The notes beneath the pieces were generated by a model, which was given only the letters and a program-made list of their open reading frames with translations, ran no database searches and was not told the origin of the DNA. Of a DNA stretch of 6,785 nucleotides, positions 1-6,785 are shown one piece after another. The stretch is from Desulfobacterales bacterium (GTDB lineage Bacteria; Desulfobacterota; DSM-4660; Desulfatiglandales; Desulfatiglandaceae). Every line of letters starts with the position of its first letter. Position 1 is the stretch's first letter. The stretch is from assembly GCA_022013615.1 (NCBI GenBank), contig JAKLQB010000519.1, positions 1-6,785 of the forward strand, written 5' to 3'. Position numbers and translations under genes: made by a program.

Positions 1-54
1 ATAAATATAATAATATATAGTATATTATTACTCAATATAACCTATCATATTACC
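1..54. repeat. Left arm of perfect 54-bp inverted repeat
   Basis: This AT-rich arm is the exact reverse complement of 185-238 over all 54 positions, and the match ends at C54/G185. Because the arm starts at the first base of the window, it could extend further left. A perfect repeat of this length in non-coding DNA means either recent origin, selection for symmetry (terminal repeats, a cruciform, a recombinase site), or a fold-back artefact at a contig end. No transposase is visible in the window. Confidence 0.9.
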
Positions 55-84
55 TCTTGTTTTTAGGCGCACTGCATTTTCTTA

Positions 85-112
85 TTGACTAAGTATATGT
101 AAATACTATAAC
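85..112 (+). promoter_or_regulatory. Candidate sigma70 promoter inside the inverted repeat
   Basis: TTGACT (85-90) and TATAAC (107-112) each match the sigma70 consensus at 5 of 6 positions and are 16 bp apart. Transcription would start near 119 and run rightward through the tRNA-Leu fragment towards tig, with no ORF in between. The spacer carries a dyad, AGTAT-N6-ATACT (92-107), placed as an operator might be. AT-rich DNA yields chance promoters, so this is a moderate call. Confidence 0.45.
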
Positions 113-138
113 TATATCCAATAATATGGCATATAAAA

Positions 139-158
139 CTATGCATATTCTATGCATA
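139..158. repeat. Two CTATGCATA direct repeats, 11 bp apart
   Basis: CTATGCATA occurs at 139-147 and again at 150-158, so the copies start 11 bp apart, about one helical turn. Each contains the self-complementary octamer TATGCATA. A looser relative, ATATGGCATAT, lies at 124-134. Phased short repeats beside an attachment site resemble integrase arm sites or excisionase/repressor sites, but nothing here identifies the protein. The repeats are seen directly; the role is inferred. Confidence 0.55.
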
Positions 159-184
159 ATGTCGTTTTCTGTGGGGATTTATAG

Positions 185-238
185 GGTAATATGATAGGTT
201 ATATTGAGTAATAATATACTATATATTATTATATTTAT
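185..238. repeat. Right arm of perfect 54-bp inverted repeat
   Basis: This is the exact reverse complement of 1-54, separated from it by a 130-nt spacer. It ends 11 nt before the first base of recognisable tRNA sequence at 250. There is no T-tract or short loop, so a terminator role is unlikely. If the pair marks a small hairpin element (MITE-like), 1-238 would be its minimal extent and a target duplication should flank it; the left flank is outside the window. Confidence 0.9.
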
Positions 239-243
239 TACGC

Positions 244-303
244 AATACATTTAGGATCCAGTACCGAAAAGGTGTAGGGGTTCGAGTCCCCTCTCTCGCA
301 CCA
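244..303 (+). mobile_element. Putative attachment-site junction in tRNA-Leu
   Basis: Tyrosine-recombinase elements often integrate at the anticodon loop or T-arm of tRNA genes. The element then supplies a replacement 3' part at one end and leaves the displaced original 3' part at the other. The abrupt switch from AT-rich sequence to tRNA sequence at about 249/250 fits the displaced end. This predicts an intact tRNA-Leu(UAG) and an integrase gene to the left of the window. Alternatives are a small hairpin element inserted in the tRNA, or a misassembly. No integrase is visible, so this is an inference. Confidence 0.5.
250..303 (+). pseudogene. 3' half of tRNA-Leu(UAG), 5' half replaced
   Basis: From T250 onward the sequence is a textbook 3' half of a type II tRNA: anticodon loop 250-256 with anticodon TAG (252-254), 3' anticodon strand TCCAG (257-261), a variable arm with an ACC/GGT stem, T-stem AGGGG/CCCCT (276-280, 288-292) around T-loop TTCGAGT, acceptor strand CTCTCGC (293-299), discriminator A and encoded CCA. 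The required 5' anticodon strand (CTGGA) is absent; the five bases before the loop read ATACA, and no D-arm or GCGAGAG acceptor strand lies upstream in the window. The break falls exactly at the start of the anticodon loop. It cannot give a functional tRNA as it stands unless the upstream sequence is spliced or excised. Confidence 0.85.
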
Positions 304-509
304 ACCACAGGATCTGGTGATCCTTTGCAGCATGTAGAAATTTGAATTGGAAAATGGCCGAGGCTGGCATCGATGCCTTGAAATTCATTAAATCATTGTT
401 AGTTTTTTCACCAAGACTTCAACAACAACTCTTTTTCTTTAAACAATGCCTAAATAGAGGCCCCTCTAAGGGAACATTCTGCCTGACTGAGCACTGAACG
501 AGGACAACC
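304..509 (+). other. tRNA-Leu to tig intergenic leader with small hairpins
   Basis: This 206-bp stretch has no convincing ORF. It contains a 6-bp hairpin directly after the tRNA (AGGATC 309-314, loop TGGT, GATCCT 319-324), a 12-bp perfect palindrome GGCATCGATGCC (366-377), and a short GC-rich hairpin TAGAG-GCCC-CTCTA (455-468) about 40 nt before the tig start. None has a proper U-tract. A TTGAAA (378-383) is present but lacks an acceptable -10 element. In the ancestral arrangement tig may have been read from the tRNA-Leu promoter; that is an inference. Confidence 0.5.
499..504 (+). promoter_or_regulatory. Ribosome binding site of tig
   Basis: CGAGGA ends 5 nt before the ATG at 510, a good anti-16S match at normal spacing. 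It supports that start over later in-frame codons. Confidence 0.7.
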
Positions 510-1838
510 ATGAGAACTAACCTGGAAGACATCACTTCTGTAAAGAAAAAATTATCAGTTGAAATTGAAACCGAGGAAGTTGACAGAAAATTCAATAAGG
601 TCTACAAAGAACTGGGAAAACAGGTCAAGATACCCGGATTCAGACCGGGGAAAGTTCCCAGAAAAATCCTCGAGAGACATATTGGCAGTCAGGTAACAGA
701 GGATGTGGTAAAAGATCTCATTAATGAGACATTACCCGGGGCTTTAGAAGAGGTCAAAACGTTTCCTCTCGGCGTACCCATCTTAGAAAAAGAGACGCTT
801 AAGCAGGGACAGGACTTCAAATATTCTGCTATAATGGAGGTCCGCCCCCAATTTGAGATAGAGAACTATCTGGGACTCGAGGTTGAAAAAGAAACATGTT
901 CGGTCACCGAACAAGACGTCCAGGATCAGCTTGCTCAAATAAGGAATGCTCACGGTACCCTCGCTTCCATTGACTCCAACAGGCCCATCAAAAAAAATGA
1001 TTATGCGGTTCTCGATTATCAGGCATTTGAGAAAGGGCAGCTTCTCGAAGAAATTCATGCATCAAATTTTCTTCTCAAAGTTGGGGGTAATGATTTTCAT
1101 CCTAAGTTTGAGGAATCCCTGATTGGTCTCAAAAAGGATGACGAAGCCGAAATCAAGGTTGAATTCGAAAGCGGTTACCCTCATACAAAGCTTGCCGGAA
1201 AAACTGTAGACTTCAAGATTAAGATGATAGATATCAAGAAAATGGTACTGCCGGAGCTAAATGATGAGTTTGCCCAAAATCTCGGGGCTGACCTTAAAGA
1301 TTTGAAGGACCTGAATAATAAGGTCAGAGAAACGATCCTCACTCAAGAGGAGAAAAGAATCGATAGCGAGCTAAAACGAAATTTGCTTAAAAAAGTCTCA
1401 GACAGTGTTGACTTTGAACTTCCTCAGACCCTGGTTGAAGCGGAGATTGAACAGGTTGTTGAAAACGTCAAGCAGAATCTCATAAGAAGTGGCTCAAATC
1501 TGGAAAAAACAGGCCTTTCGGAAGAAAAACTTCGAAAAGACTTTAGACCTGCTTCAGAAAAACGAGTCAAGAATTTGCTCATTTTGGGCGAAATAGCTAA
1601 GCAGGAGAAACTTGCAGTAAATGAAGAGGATCTGAACCAGGGATTCAAGGACTTGGCTGCATCCACCGGGCAGGATGCTGAAACCCTCCGAAAGTATTAT
1701 CAGGCGAGAAATCTCATGGATGCCCTGGAAGAAAAACTACTGGAGGAAAAAACATTGAACTACTTGGTGGAAAATGCTAAAATTTCCATATTAGATCCTC
1801 AAAGCAAAAATAATTCAAAAAAAAAGGAGAATGATTAG
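510..1838 (+). CDS. tig: Trigger factor, ribosome-associated chaperone and prolyl isomerase
   Basis: The 442-residue product is close to the usual length of about 430-450. The N-terminal ribosome-binding domain (about 1-115) carries the signature GFRPGKVP at residues 43-50, which docks on ribosomal protein L23 at the exit tunnel. An FKBP-type peptidyl-prolyl isomerase domain spans about 155-245, recognisable by the DYAVLDY strand and the [14 protein letters not shown] segment, followed by the LPELNDEF linker at 247-254. The helical C-terminal arms that cradle nascent chains fill the rest, ending in a lysine-rich charged tail. Role: cytosolic co-translational folding chaperone. It is the first gene of the tig-clpP-clpX-lon unit and stops 5 bp before clpP. 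The start is supported by a well-spaced Shine-Dalgarno. No odd features apart from an A9 run near the 3' end. Confidence 0.97.
1817..1829 (+). promoter_or_regulatory. A9 tract and AAGGAG ribosome binding site of clpP inside tig
   Basis: Nine adenines (1817-1825) run into AAGGAG (1824-1829), so the strongest Shine-Dalgarno for clpP lies in the last codons of tig. It is 14 nt from the clpP ATG at 1844, longer than the usual 5-9. A weaker AGG at 1836-1838, overlapping the tig stop, is 5 nt away. A TGA at 1832-1834 in the clpP frame rules out any earlier clpP start. Translational coupling through the terminating tig ribosome is likely. Confidence 0.6.
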
Positions 1839-1843
1839 GCCTT

Positions 1844-2458
1844 ATGCTGATTCCAATCGTAATTGAACAGTCAAGCCGTGGCGAACGGGCTTATGATATT
1901 TACTCAAGGTTGCTGAAGGATCGGATAATCATTATGGGAGAGGAAGTGCTCGACGGTATGGCCAATACCGTCATAGCCCAAATGCTCTTTCTGGAATCCG
2001 AGGACCCGGACAAAGACATCAACATGTACATCAATTCTCCGGGTGGGTCAGTTACTGCCGGAATGGCCATCTATGACACCATGCAATACATCAAACCGGA
2101 TGTAGCCACTATCTGCATGGGTCAAGCCACCAGCATGGCAGCCCTGCTCCTTGCAGCCGGGGCAGTGGGGAAACGATATGCCCTCCCCCACTCCAGAATC
2201 ATGATTCATCAACCTCTCGGAGGAACCCAGGGTCAGGCCACCGATATAGATATTCACGCCAGAGAAATATTAAAAATGAGAGATACGTTGAACCATATCC
2301 TTTTTAAACATACTGGCCAACCAATTGAAAAGGTGAGAAAAGACACTGAACGCGACTATTTCATGACCAGTGAAGAGGCAAAGGAATATGGCATAGTAGA
2401 TAAAGTTATCACCACAAGAGAAATGCAAAACCCATTAAGCAGACACAAGAAGGCATGA
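1844..2458 (+). CDS. clpP: ATP-dependent Clp protease proteolytic subunit ClpP
   Basis: This is a 204-residue serine peptidase of family S14, full length for ClpP. The catalytic triad is Ser97 (in GQATSMA), His122 (in RIMIHQP) and Asp171 (in TERDYFMT), the same numbering as mature E. coli ClpP. The N-terminus LIPIVIEQ begins where mature ClpP normally begins, so there is little or no propeptide. Other landmarks are YINSPGGSV (62-70), a glycine-rich oxyanion-hole strand, and the handle region around [10 protein letters not shown] (126-135). Family knowledge: two heptamers form a chamber that degrades chains delivered by ClpX. Thr96 next to the catalytic Ser replaces the usual Ala. It lies between tig (5-bp gap) and clpX (4-bp gap). 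The identification is secure. Confidence 0.98.
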
Positions 2459-2462
2459 GACT

Positions 2463-3713
2463 ATGAGCAAGAAAAGTGACTCCAGTGACGATTTGATGTG
2501 TTCGTTCTGCGGAAAGAGCCAGGACGAAGTGAAGAAACTTATCGCAGGTCCTTCTGTATATATTTGCGATGAATGCATTCAGCTGTGTAACGAAATTATC
2601 GCCGAGGAATACACGCAGGATAGTAAAGAAGACTCGTCATCTCTGTTGCCAAAGCCAGCCGAGATAAAGGAAACCCTTGACCAGTATGTGATCGAACAGG
2701 AGAAACCAAAAAAGACTTTATCTGTGGCGGTTCACAACCATTACAAGAGGATTAGCACAAAGGTCGATATGGAAGGTGTGGAGATCGAGAAAAGCAATAT
2801 CCTCCTGATCGGCCCCACAGGGTCAGGCAAGACACTTCTGGCTCAGACCCTGGCCAAAATACTAAAAGTACCCTTCACAATTGCTGATGCCACCACCCTC
2901 ACTGAGGCTGGATATGTGGGTGAAGACGTGGAAAACATTATTTTAAACCTCCTTCAAATGGCTGATTATGAGGTGGAGGCTGCGTGTAAGGGCATCGTTT
3001 ATATCGATGAAATCGACAAAATCGCCAGAAAATCGGACAGTCCATCCATTACCCGCGATGTGTCCGGGGAGGGGGTCCAGCAGGCCCTTTTAAAAATTAT
3101 AGAAGGGACCCTGGCCAACGTCCCGCCCAAAGGGGGCAGAAAACACCCGCAACAGGACTTTGTAAAGGTGGACACAAGCAATATCCTTTTTATTTGCGGC
3201 GGTACCTTCAATGGTCTGGACAAGATAATCAAAAATCGAATCGGCAGTAAATTGATAGGTTTTGAAGCAGATATCAAAGGAAAAGGAGAAATAGATATTA
3301 ACGAAATAATGCCTTTGGTCCAACCAGAAGACCTAATCAAGTTCGGCCTGATACCGGAATTCATCGGAAGAATACCCATAGTCGCCACGTTAAACGAATT
3401 AAGCCTGGACGCCCTTGTAAGGATTCTGACAGAGCCCAAAAACGCCCTCATCAAGCAGTATCAAAAACTGTTTGAACTGGAGCACGTTAAGCTGAAATTC
3501 ACCGATGCCGCTCTATTGGATGTTGCTAAGGCTGCATTAGAACGGAAATCCGGCGCACGCGGCTTAAGAGCAATTCTTGAATCTGTAATGTTGGATATCA
3601 TGTATGAAATTCCTTCTTCTCCGGGAATACAAGAGTGTGTGATCGGTGAAGAGGTCATAACAAGGGGCGAGTCTCCTCTCTTACTTTATGAAAACAAGGT
3701 AGAATATGCATAA
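2463..3713 (+). CDS. clpX: ATP-dependent Clp protease ATPase subunit ClpX
   Basis: The 416-residue AAA+ unfoldase has the complete ClpX layout. The N-terminal zinc-binding domain has Cys13, Cys16, Cys35 and Cys38 (CSFC and CDEC). Walker A is GPTGSGKT (117-124), pore-1 loop GYVG (150-153), Walker [10 protein letters not shown] with Asp182/Glu183, the RKH pore loop (226-228), the IGF tripeptide that docks on ClpP (265-267), arginine finger in EFIGR (Arg303) and sensor 2 in GARGLR (364-369). It recognises substrates, unfolds them with ATP and threads them into ClpP, encoded just upstream. GAAGG (2449-2453), 9 nt before the ATG, serves as ribosome binding site. The normally conserved VIGQ motif reads VIEQ (76-79), followed by Pro82 where Ala is typical; all catalytic residues remain. 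Its end overlaps lon by 8 bp. Confidence 0.98.
3696..3699 (+). promoter_or_regulatory. Ribosome binding site of lon, within clpX
   Basis: AAGG lies 6 nt before the ATG at 3706, inside the last clpX codons. It favours 3706 over the next in-frame ATG at 3718, and the resulting 8-bp overlap with clpX points to translational coupling. Confidence 0.6.
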
Positions 3714-6177
3714 ATCAATGTTCAATTTGACGAAAAGAGATCAAAGCGATTTCCTGAAAACGGAAAAATCGTACTATCCGCTTCTCCCACTCAGAGACGT
3801 GGTTGTTTTCCCCAACGTAGTGGTCCCGCTCTTTGTGGGGCGAGGGAAATCCATTAAGGCGCTTGAATATGCCATGTCTCATCAAAAGGAAGTCTTCTTG
3901 TCTGCTCAAAAAGATGCGAAAGTCGATGATCCGTCTCCCGGAGACATATATTCTTTTGGCACTCTCAGCACTGTTCTTCAGTTGCTAAAGCTACCCGATG
4001 GTACAGTCAAGGCCCTGATTGAAGGGAAAGAAAGGGGAAGGATTGAGAATACCCTGGTAAAACAGGAATTTTTCATGGTCGAAGTGAGCAAAATTTCAAG
4101 ACGGCACGAGACAACAGTTGAGACCAAAGCATTAATGCGAACCATTAATGCCAGCTTTAAAGAATATGCCAAACTAAACAGCAAAATCGGACAGGAAGTT
4201 GTTTCAACAATGATCTCCATCCAGGACCCTGAACGTCTGGGAGATACCATAGCGGGTCATCTCACCTTGAGGGTGCGGGAGAAGCAGGAGCTTCTCGAAA
4301 CCCAAGATCTGAACAAACGGCTGGAAAAACTTTTTGAAAAGCTTAACAATGAGGTAGATATCCTCAGGCTTGAGCAGCGCCTCAGGACAAGGGTCAAAAA
4401 ACAGATGGAAAAGACCCAAAAGGATTATTATCTCAACGAACAGATGCGTGCCATCCAAAAAGAAATGGGCACCAAGGATGATTTCAAGGCAGAGCTCAAC
4501 GAACTCGAAAAAAAGATCAAGCGAAAGAGGCTATCCAAGGAAGCAAATGCCCGGGTTAAGCAGGAATTCAGCAAGCTTAAGATGATGTCTCCCATGTCGG
4601 CAGAGGCCACCGTAGTGCGGAACTATATCGACTGGATCATCTCTCTACCCTGGCACGAAAAAACAAAAGGAAAATTGGACATTGAAGAAGCTGAAACGAT
4701 CCTGAACGAAGACCATTATGGACTTGAAAAGCCAAAGGAGAGAATCATCGAGTACCTTGCTGTTCAAACACTGACCAAGAAAATGCGAGGCCCTATCCTG
4801 TGTCTGGTAGGCCCCCCAGGCGTTGGTAAAACCTCATTAGCCAAGTCGGTGGCGAGGGCCACCGGGCGAAATTTCGTTCGCCTCTCTCTCGGAGGGGTTA
4901 GAGATGAGGCCGAAATAAGAGGACACAGAAGAACGTATATTGGAGCGCTTCCGGGAAAAATCATTCAATTTCTTAAGAAGGCCAAATCAAACAACCCTGT
5001 CTTTTGCTTGGATGAAGTTGACAAGATGAGCACCGATTTCCGTGGCGACCCTTCTGCAGCCCTCTTGGAGGTCCTGGATCCGGAGCAAAACTTCGCCTTT
5101 AATGACCATTATCTTGATCTGGACTATGATCTGTCTGATGTATTCTTTATCACCACAGCCAATACCCTTCACAGCATTCCGCTGCCACTACAGGACAGAA
5201 TGGAAATTATCCGGCTGCCGGGCTACACAGAACTGGAAAAACTGAACATCGCAAAGCAATTTCTTATAAAAAAGCAGACCGATCAAAACGGCCTTCAGTC
5301 TGAGAACATCTCTTTCACTGACAAGGCCATTTTTACGATCATCAGGACATATACAAGAGAAGCTGGTGTCAGGAATTTGGAGCGAGAGATCTCTTCGATC
5401 TGCCGTAAGTTGGCGAGGAAAATAGTAAAACGTGGTGTAGATGCCAAAATAGCCTTGATGGCTCAGTCCATTCACAAATATCTTGGTATACCAAAATACC
5501 GCTATGGCCGCACTGAAGAAAAAAACATCGTCGGTGTGGGAACAGGACTGGCATGGACAGATGTGGGAGGGGAACTCCTTCAAATTGAAGCCACCATTAT
5601 GCCAGGCAAAGGGAGCCTGGTTCTTACGGGAAAACTCGGAGATGTAATGCAGGAATCGGCCCAGGCCGCTCTGAGTTATGTGCGTTCAAGGGCACGGCAG
5701 TTAAGACTTCCTGATAACTTCTATGAAAATATTGACATCCATATCCATGTCCCGGAGGGTGCTATTCCTAAGGATGGCCCTTCTGCAGGTATCACACTTG
5801 CTACTTCAATCGTCTCCGCCCTGACGAGAAAACCAGTCAATCATGATATTGCCATGACAGGGGAGATCACCTTAAGGGGGAGAGTCCTGCCCATTGGGGG
5901 ACTCAAAGAAAAAATACTGGCAGCCCACCGGGGTGGTATAAGCAAGGTACTCATACCCTTTGACAATAAAAAAGATATTGAAGAGATACCAGGAAAAATC
6001 CTAAGAAAAGTTGAAATAGTCCTGATTGAGCATATGGATGAAGTCCTGACGCAGGCACTCGTCCTGGAAGAAGGGGCAGGACTCTTTGCACCGGAAGAAG
6101 AATACGAGCCTTTTTGCCTCACAGACACTATCAAAAAGACTGGAGAAGAATCTCCATCCGGTATCACAGCTCACTGA
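3706..6177 (+). CDS. lon: ATP-dependent protease Lon (LonA type)
   Basis: This 823-residue protein is a complete LonA. The LON substrate-binding domain begins near [13 protein letters not shown] (24-36), and a charged coiled-coil stretch follows at about 200-275. The AAA+ module has Walker A GPPGVGKT (369-376), Walker [10 protein letters not shown] with Asp436/Glu437, pore loop YIGALPG (411-417), sensor 1 Asn486 in FITTAN, arginine finger near Arg498 and sensor 2 Arg556 in REAGVRNLE. The protease domain has the Ser-Lys dyad: Ser693 in PKDGPSAG and Lys736 in [12 protein letters not shown], 43 residues apart as in E. coli Lon. Role: cytosolic degradation of misfolded and regulatory proteins, often stress-induced. 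It is longer than E. coli Lon (784) because of a few N-terminal residues and an acidic C-terminal tail (about 787-823). It is the last gene of the operon, 56 bp before tRNA-Val, with no obvious terminator between them. Confidence 0.98.
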
Positions 6178-6192
6178 GCGGTTTAAATAAGC

Positions 6193-6221
6193 TTGACAAA
6201 AGCAATCCAGGCGGTTAGATT
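6193..6221 (+). promoter_or_regulatory. Sigma70 promoter of tRNA-Val
   Basis: A perfect TTGACA (6193-6198) is followed after 17 bp by TAGATT (6216-6221, 4 of 6). The predicted start near 6228 is a few bases before the tRNA at 6234. The dyad TTAGAT-TTATC-ATCTAA (6215-6231) spans the -10 and the start point. The 9-mer GGCGGTTAG at 6210-6218 nearly repeats the tRNA 5' end GGCGGATAG at 6235-6243. Placement and spacing make this the best promoter in the window. Confidence 0.75.
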
Positions 6222-6233
6222 TATCATCTAATC

Positions 6234-6308
6234 GGGCGGATAGCTCAGTGGGAGAGCGTCGGCCTTACAAGCCGAGGGTCGCAGGTTCAAATCCTGTTCC
6301 GCCTACCA
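6234..6308 (+). tRNA. tRNA-Val (anticodon UAC)
   Basis: A full cloverleaf can be drawn. Acceptor GGGCGGA pairs with TCCGCCT, with one G-T at the first pair. The D-arm stem is GCTC/GAGC. Anticodon stem TCGGC/GCCGA closes loop CTTACAA, giving anticodon TAC. T-stem GCAGG/CCTGT closes loop TTCAAAT, and discriminator A is followed by an encoded CCA. The length is 75 nt, with a D-loop one base shorter than in many tRNA-Val genes. It decodes GUA and GUG, probably also other Val codons by wobble. It has its own promoter, though read-through from lon is possible. Confidence 0.95.
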
Positions 6309-6318
6309 TTAATCAGCG

Positions 6319-6339
6319 ACCACCTGTAGAACTGGTGGT
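6319..6339 (+). other. Hairpin 1 downstream of tRNA-Val
   Basis: ACCACC (6319-6324) pairs with GGTGGT (6334-6339) around a 9-nt loop. It lies 10 nt past the CCA end and has no T-tract, so it may take part in 3' processing or weak termination; the function is unknown. Confidence 0.4.
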
Positions 6340-6347
6340 ATGAGGAA

Positions 6348-6363
6348 GGCCCTAAAAGGGGCC
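6348..6363 (+). terminator. GC-rich hairpin 2 downstream of tRNA-Val, possible terminator
   Basis: GGCCCT (6348-6353) pairs with GGGGCC (6358-6363) around an AAAA loop: five G-C pairs plus one G-T. No U-run follows (ACTGAAATAG), so it is not a canonical intrinsic terminator. It is the strongest stem after lon and tRNA-Val and the most plausible place for transcription to end. Confidence 0.35.
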
Positions 6364-6385
6364 ACTGAAATAGTCAGCGATAGTG

Positions 6386-6563
6386 AATTTAAAATACGAA
6401 TATCGAAATCCGAAATTCGAAACAATACCAAATGACCAAAATCCCAATAACCAAAACCATTGTGTTAACATCGGCTATGTATAACTGGCTTCTGCGTACT
6501 CGTTTTGAACATTGAAAAATTCGAATTTGTTTCGTATTTCGTGCTTCGGATTTCGGATTTAAT
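6386..6563. repeat. Imperfect inverted-repeat element with 7-bp CGAA-type units
   Basis: The left arm (6389-6425) matches the reverse complement of the right arm (6526-6562 or so) at about 27 of 37 positions. Each arm is a tandem array with a 7-bp period: on the left CGAATAT, CGAAATC, CGAAATT, CGAAACA (6397-6424), and on the right the mirror set TGTTTCG, TATTTCG, TGCTTCG, GATTTCG (6528-6555). The perfect palindrome AATTCGAATT (6518-6527) adjoins the right arm, and four CCAAAA-like units follow the left arm (6428-6458). No ORF is inside. I recall similar CGAAATCCGAAA text as a dispersed intergenic repeat in uncultured bacteria, but could not verify it here. It resembles a non-autonomous hairpin element. 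Confidence 0.6.
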
Positions 6564-6606
6564 ATAACTCAAAAAGTGCCTGAAACGGTAAAACCTTTTC
6601 ATTTCT

Positions 6607-6623
6607 CACCGGTATAACCGGTG
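6607..6623. other. Perfect 7-bp hairpin
   Basis: CACCGGT (6607-6613) and ACCGGTG (6617-6623) are perfect complements around an ATA loop. No T-tract follows on the + strand, but on the minus strand it is followed by AGAAATGAAAAGG. It could form in RNA from either strand; its role is unknown. Confidence 0.45.
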
Positions 6624-6643
6624 GATTAATTACGATTTAAGCC

Positions 6644-6697
6644 AGTACCCAGTACCGGATACCGAGTACCACCTCAATTGAGGTCTAACTGAGTACC
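6644..6697. repeat. Four AGTACC short repeats
   Basis: AGTACC occurs at 6644-6649, 6651-6656, 6665-6670 and 6692-6697, with a degenerate ATACCG at 6659-6664. The last copy lies inside the C-terminal codons of the minus-strand gene. The spacing is irregular, so this is not a CRISPR. It looks like a small intergenic repeat cluster. Confidence 0.5.
6671..6684 (-). other. 14-bp palindrome just after the minus-strand stop codon
   Basis: ACCTCAATTGAGGT is a perfect palindrome that begins directly after the TAG of the minus-strand gene. It has no loop spacer and no T-run, so it is a poor terminator. It could be a protein-binding dyad or a minimal stem. Confidence 0.35.
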
Positions 6698-6785
6698 ACT
6701 AAAGCATCCACAGCCACGGGTTTGCTCCCGGAAATAATCACAGGGTTAATGTCAATCTCTTTGATTCTCTCATTCTCTAAACCTA
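6685..6785 (-). CDS. C-terminal end of ADP-forming acyl-CoA synthetase (partial)
   Basis: On the minus strand, 32 codons and a TAG stop (6685-6687) are visible, reading GLENERIKEIDINPV and then IISGSKPVAVDALVVLS. The pattern EIDINPx...VAVDAxVxL is characteristic of the end of the ATP-grasp domain in ADP-forming acetate/acyl-CoA ligases and the related protein acetyltransferases (Pat-like). Those enzymes interconvert an acyl-CoA, ADP and phosphate with the free acid, CoA and ATP, or acetylate lysines when fused to a GNAT domain. The 5' part lies to the right of the window, so domain order and exact substrate cannot be told. It is transcribed convergently with the lon/tRNA-Val unit. The family call is fairly secure and the subfamily is open. 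Confidence 0.75.
   Translation of the reverse strand, partial: GLENERIKEIDINPVIISGSKPVAVDALVVLS

Follow-up and report, generated by a model that had tools for sequence, protein, structure and literature searches.

The window, as I call the whole 6,785-nucleotide stretch of DNA that was analysed, carries tig, clpP, clpX and lon one after the other, each identified by its NCBIfam profile above the cut-off (TIGR00115, TIGR00493, TIGR00382 and TIGR00763, respectively). An intact tRNA-Val(UAC), at 6234-6308, is the only tRNA that ARAGORN calls in it. No tRNA is called at 249-303, upstream of tig, where the 3' part of a tRNA-Leu(UAG) lies without the rest of the gene. The features on which the analysis turns are collected in Table 1, in which L002 designates contig MVDB01000059.1 of Desulfobacteraceae bacterium 4484_190.2, a metagenome-assembled genome.

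Table 1. Features at the left end of the window.
Feature	Position	Strand	Basis or remark
Left arm of the perfect 54-nt inverted repeat	1..54	+	Starts at base 1
AT-rich DNA unlike the host, interpreted as one end of an integrated element	1..248	.	Composition; no credible relatives in the collections searched
Right arm of the perfect 54-nt inverted repeat	185..238	-	Ends ten bases ahead of the tRNA fragment
Possible left core-type site	240..249	+	6 of 10 bases match, in register, the tRNA sequence left of the loop
Junction, left end of the homology to relatives	248..250	.	Ungapped alignment to L002 and 21 rows of intact relatives
3' part of tRNA-Leu(UAG)	249..303	+	54 of 55 bases identical to the intact gene, L002 4783-4837
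Host flank, from tRNA-Leu to tig	304..449	+	Runs on from the tRNA fragment without a break; 93.5% identity between 249-449 and L002 4783-4983
tig (trigger factor), first gene of the host flank	510..1838	+	TIGR00115, E = 6.2e-118

The fragment comprises the anticodon loop (250-256), the 3' strand of the anticodon stem, the variable arm, the T arm, the 3' strand of the acceptor stem and the CCA end. In L002, ARAGORN calls a tRNA-Leu(TAG) at 4752-4837, and bases 32-86 of this intact gene are identical to the fragment at all positions except one, A268, which is a G in L002. The match has an E value of 1.7e-24 in a search limited to the fetched loci, and is therefore not a chance resemblance. L002 has CTGGA-TTTAGGA-TCCAG as its anticodon stem-loop, of which the window retains the loop and the 3' strand, with other sequence in place of the 5' strand. 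The tRNA 5' half, 31 bases long, has no 9-mer in common with the window on either strand, and shares 8-mers with it at three scattered points (4617, 6296 and 6329). What is left of the gene is an end fragment, not an internal one, and it breaks off at the anticodon loop, as integration into the loop would have it. An earlier note on this DNA had claimed a tRNA-Leu(UAG) cut at the anticodon loop, lacking its 5' half and lying ahead of the tig-clpP-clpX-lon genes, and all of this is borne out. One detail needs correction: the span that it gave, 244-303, includes five bases (244-248) that are not tRNA.

The break falls between 248 and 250, either where the anticodon loop starts or one base ahead of it. 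Identity begins at A249, but the start is certain only from T250, the first loop base, since A249 may agree with the tRNA by coincidence. The 21 rows of intact relatives used to place the junction correspond to 20 distinct places, L002 and L007 belonging to the same contig; a 22nd locus, L039, did not fit the motif used and was left out. Rightwards, the alignment to L002 runs unbroken from 249 into the host flank.

The earlier note had suggested that related genomes be inspected for an intact tRNA-Leu ahead of tig, and L002 provides one. Its gene order is radC - tRNA-Leu(UAG) - tig, with the tRNA intact, radC confirmed by profile (NF000642) and a tig protein 91% identical to that of the window; the relative thus possesses the uninterrupted attachment site that integration into the anticodon loop presupposes. 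Three other tig relatives, at 65-67% identity (L003, L004 and L005), lack a called tRNA-Leu ahead of tig, indicating that this neighbourhood is not universal. A search of 99 genomes for relatives gave matches in 74, nearly all of them to the tRNA part, and tRNA-Leu(UAG) was intact at all 20 loci drawn from it. The genome nearest to the window, G001, is 97% identical to it over 447 bases covering the end of tig, on a contig that begins within tig. G001 gave no match to the tRNA-Leu of the window at E 1e-7 and, among the best 40 of 105 candidates, a single radC-like match (83 bases at 74%).

Between radC and tRNA-Leu, L002 carries at 4619-4735 a repeat of about 110 nt that is dispersed, with at least 14 matches in G001 and at least 15 in G003 (its own place counted) at E <= 1e-12, and none in the three further genomes of the family that were searched. 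Rfam matches only the adjacent tRNA, no match was found in plasmids and no good one in the window; the RNA fold of the repeat is modest (z -1.8).

How tRNA-Leu(UAG) is ordinarily disposed was assessed in 85 genomes of the class, by counts made by eye from the match table. The tRNA of the window was found at full length in 66 of them (query 1-86, or 1-83 in two), as two copies in G055 and G083 and as one copy in the other 64. Four genomes (G005, G028, G043 and G061) gave a weaker match only, at 77-78%, probably to another tRNA-Leu, and the remaining 15 gave no match to the tRNA at E 1e-7. Thirty genomes reach 90% completeness with no more than 5% contamination; all of these were matched, 29 at full length, G061 being the one with the weaker match. 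The presence of an intact tRNA in well-completed genomes suggests that the gene is likely needed, so that a working copy should exist elsewhere in the genome from which the window comes. Together with the 20 intact loci of the relatives, the class-wide pattern indicates that the gene is as a rule single and unbroken, and that its state in the window is derived.

At E 1e-7 or better, no other displaced 3' half of this tRNA was detected in the 85 class genomes, among which the site is therefore no visible hot spot. The two genomes with a second copy were considered as cases of integration and rejected: both copies in G055 are intact and lie at contig ends, so that the pair looks like one gene split between contigs, and G083 has two intact radC - tRNA-Leu places without a displaced half. 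A strict pattern run against 395 phylum genomes gave no match, a result that is uninformative because the pattern nearly requires the variable arm of the window itself.

Left of the junction the DNA changes in character, its G+C content being 23.4% in 1-248 as against 44.7% in 249-6785. This segment, which the earlier note had described as AT-rich and unrelated to the tRNA gene, has no credible relative in the collections searched. No match was found among 148 phylum genomes, nor in plasmids, nor in phage records beyond the tRNA part. Positions 55-184 taken alone had no phage match at E 1, and viral contigs contained none of the exact patterns made from the repeat arm, the junction, the tRNA 3' half and two pieces of 55-184. 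These negatives carry little weight, as the AT-rich query was run without a positive control. A search of 85 genomes of the order, a set that like the 85 of the class is partly included in the 148 of the phylum, returned one weak match, of 61-100 to G054 (E = 5.3e-4); it lies within hflC (L027 1501-1537, ORF 591-1571, TIGR01932) and was taken as chance. No open reading frame of 60 or more codons, open ends included, overlaps 1-248.

One phage record, LR745208.1, was considered as a source of the segment and discarded, since what it matches is an intact tRNA-Leu(UAG) within a series of five tRNA-Leu genes. This 485-kb record of an uncultured phage (L039, 200144-201397) has the five genes in succession, with anticodons CAG, GAG, UAG, CAA and UAA.

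Close to the junction, 240-249 resembles the tRNA sequence left of the loop. Agreement of at least six bases in ten, as found there, occurs at 0.4% of positions in shuffled sequences, one of the six bases being A249, and in some genomes of the 99-genome relatives search the alignments start at 240. This is only a hint, noticed after the fact in the sequence, that 240-249 might be a core-type recognition site. Direct repeats of 9 bases at 139 and 150 (11 apart) were rejected as arm sites, since such a pair arose in 169 of 2000 shuffles.

The segment also contains a perfect inverted repeat of 54 nt, which the earlier note does not mention. Its arms are 130 nt apart, and each of them contains a smaller inverted pair (8-30 and 209-231). 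When 1-248 was dinucleotide-shuffled 60 times, no perfect self-complementary match exceeded 18, against the 54 observed, and positions 1-310, folded as DNA, give -62.5 kcal/mol (z -12 relative to 100 shuffles). With its left arm starting right at base 1, the repeat may extend further left.

Tyrosine integrases often cross over in the anticodon loops of tRNA genes, and I consider it likely that the junction is the attR of an element integrated into the chromosome, for which tRNA-Leu(UAG) served as the attachment site. Strand exchange by a tyrosine recombinase would have spanned the 7-base anticodon loop, and the element would have brought its own copy of the tRNA, from loop to 3' end; this would have restored a working tRNA-Leu at the left, distal end of the element, while the original 3' half of the host was displaced and left ahead of tig. 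This reading starts from what is observed, namely a 3' half that lacks its 5' partner, the place where the gene breaks off, a continuous host flank, an intact site in a relative and a foreign composition on the left. The integrase, the rebuilt gene at the far end and the size and type of the element (island or prophage) are what I infer beyond the edge of the window. The earlier note had already taken the junction for the likely edge of a tyrosine-recombinase element, and the break at the loop, the side on which the host flank lies and the foreign composition on the left all fit that proposal; the inverted repeat, however, keeps other explanations alive. It is the one part of the segment for which attR gives no account: it stands at the first base of the window, and attachment sites need no such repeat. 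It also counts against attR that neither an integrase nor an intact tRNA-Leu, a second copy of the segment or the left end of an element is present in the window, which holds a single junction 248 bases from its left end, and that the 85 class genomes yielded no further displaced 3' half at E 1e-7.

The main rival, because the inverted repeat reaches the edge of the window, is an assembly artefact, either a fold-back or a chimera, in which case the real gene would be intact. A perfect inverted repeat that starts exactly at base 1 is what a fold-back join would produce, and a segment without credible relatives in the collections searched may be misjoined. However, a chimera formed through shared tRNA words would bring along some of the 5' half, of which there is none; a random join would rarely fall within one base of the loop edge; and a fold-back alone leaves the non-host-like composition of 55-248 unaccounted for. 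An artefact is unlikely, though not negligible. The same repeat could alternatively be the termini of a transposable, MITE-like element inserted into the tRNA gene, whose 5' half would then be found immediately beyond the left edge of the window. Two perfect arms separated by 130 nt that hold no open reading frame of 60 or more codons have the appearance of such an element, and arms ten bases longer than those visible would meet the tRNA junction. Yet the visible right arm ends at 238, ten bases short of it, and the 24-base core of the arm has no copy, with up to three mismatches, in three incomplete congeneric genomes other than that of the window. An insertion of this kind should moreover be harmful, breaking as it does a tRNA gene that is normally single-copy, and would leave the position at the loop edge a coincidence. 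I regard it as improbable.

A further rival is an intron that interrupts the anticodon loop and has its 5' exon beyond the left edge of the window; group I introns do occur in the anticodon loop of tRNA-Leu genes. Rfam scans, one of them of 1-320 at a lax threshold, nevertheless revealed no intron family and no conserved group I core in the 248 bases available, and the last base of an intron within the anticodon would here be T or A, whereas group I introns end in G. This leaves an intron extremely unlikely. The inverted repeat might, finally, be reconciled with integration itself if, lying ten bases from the crossover, it took part in the working of the attachment site, for instance as a hairpin through which single-stranded DNA of the element recombines. 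A hairpin route into a tRNA gene, which would stand in place of the usual double-stranded attP, is very improbable.

An integrated element at tRNA-Leu(UAG) would have well-described counterparts. According to the Islander survey (PMC4383910), integrase crossover within a tRNA gene rebuilds the gene at one end of the island and displaces the 3' half of the host to the other, and a 3' fragment lies downstream of its tRNA gene. The filters given there require that the opposite end carry an intact tRNA of the same kind, in the same orientation and 2-200 kb away; of the 3919 candidate islands counted, 2083 have anticodon-centred sites and 3760 a 3' fragment (PMC4383910). By the rule described there, foreign DNA 5' of the 3' fragment is on the side expected for an island (PMC4383910). 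The window resembles class A of that scheme, which is anticodon-centred and associated with tyrosine integrases, in having a 3' fragment that starts at the loop and adjoins the host flank, and in having its foreign DNA where the 5' half would belong (PMC4383910). It differs from class A islands in being known from one junction alone. A second likeness, in tRNA-Leu as the target and in the part played by the anticodon loop, is to the ICEMh1-like elements of Pasteurellaceae as described in PMC6861422. According to that description, the most frequent outcome of ICEMh1 insertion into tRNA-Leu is one working and one broken copy, the repeat lies at the anticodon loop and the far side does not keep the D arm of the tRNA (PMC6861422). 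The anticodon differs, the target of ICEMh1 being named tRNA-leu UUG, and its host belongs to another group (PMC6861422).

If the junction is an attR, a mobile element, itself out of view, has one of its ends here, in a Desulfobacteraceae-like lineage; the relatives found in this analysis are metagenome-assembled genomes. The anticodon loop of the tRNA-Leu(UAG) ahead of tig would then provide an exact handle for tracing the element in longer assemblies. Anticodon-loop integration being one of the main kinds of integration into tRNA genes, no general idea is changed thereby: the displaced half is most likely the ordinary scar of a mobile-element insertion and a further instance of a known arrangement.

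At the other end of the window, the spacer after tRNA-Val holds an imperfect inverted repeat, 6387-6425 and 6527-6565 (39 nt at 74%), rich in TTTCG/CGAAA, which is possibly a dispersed palindromic repeat.
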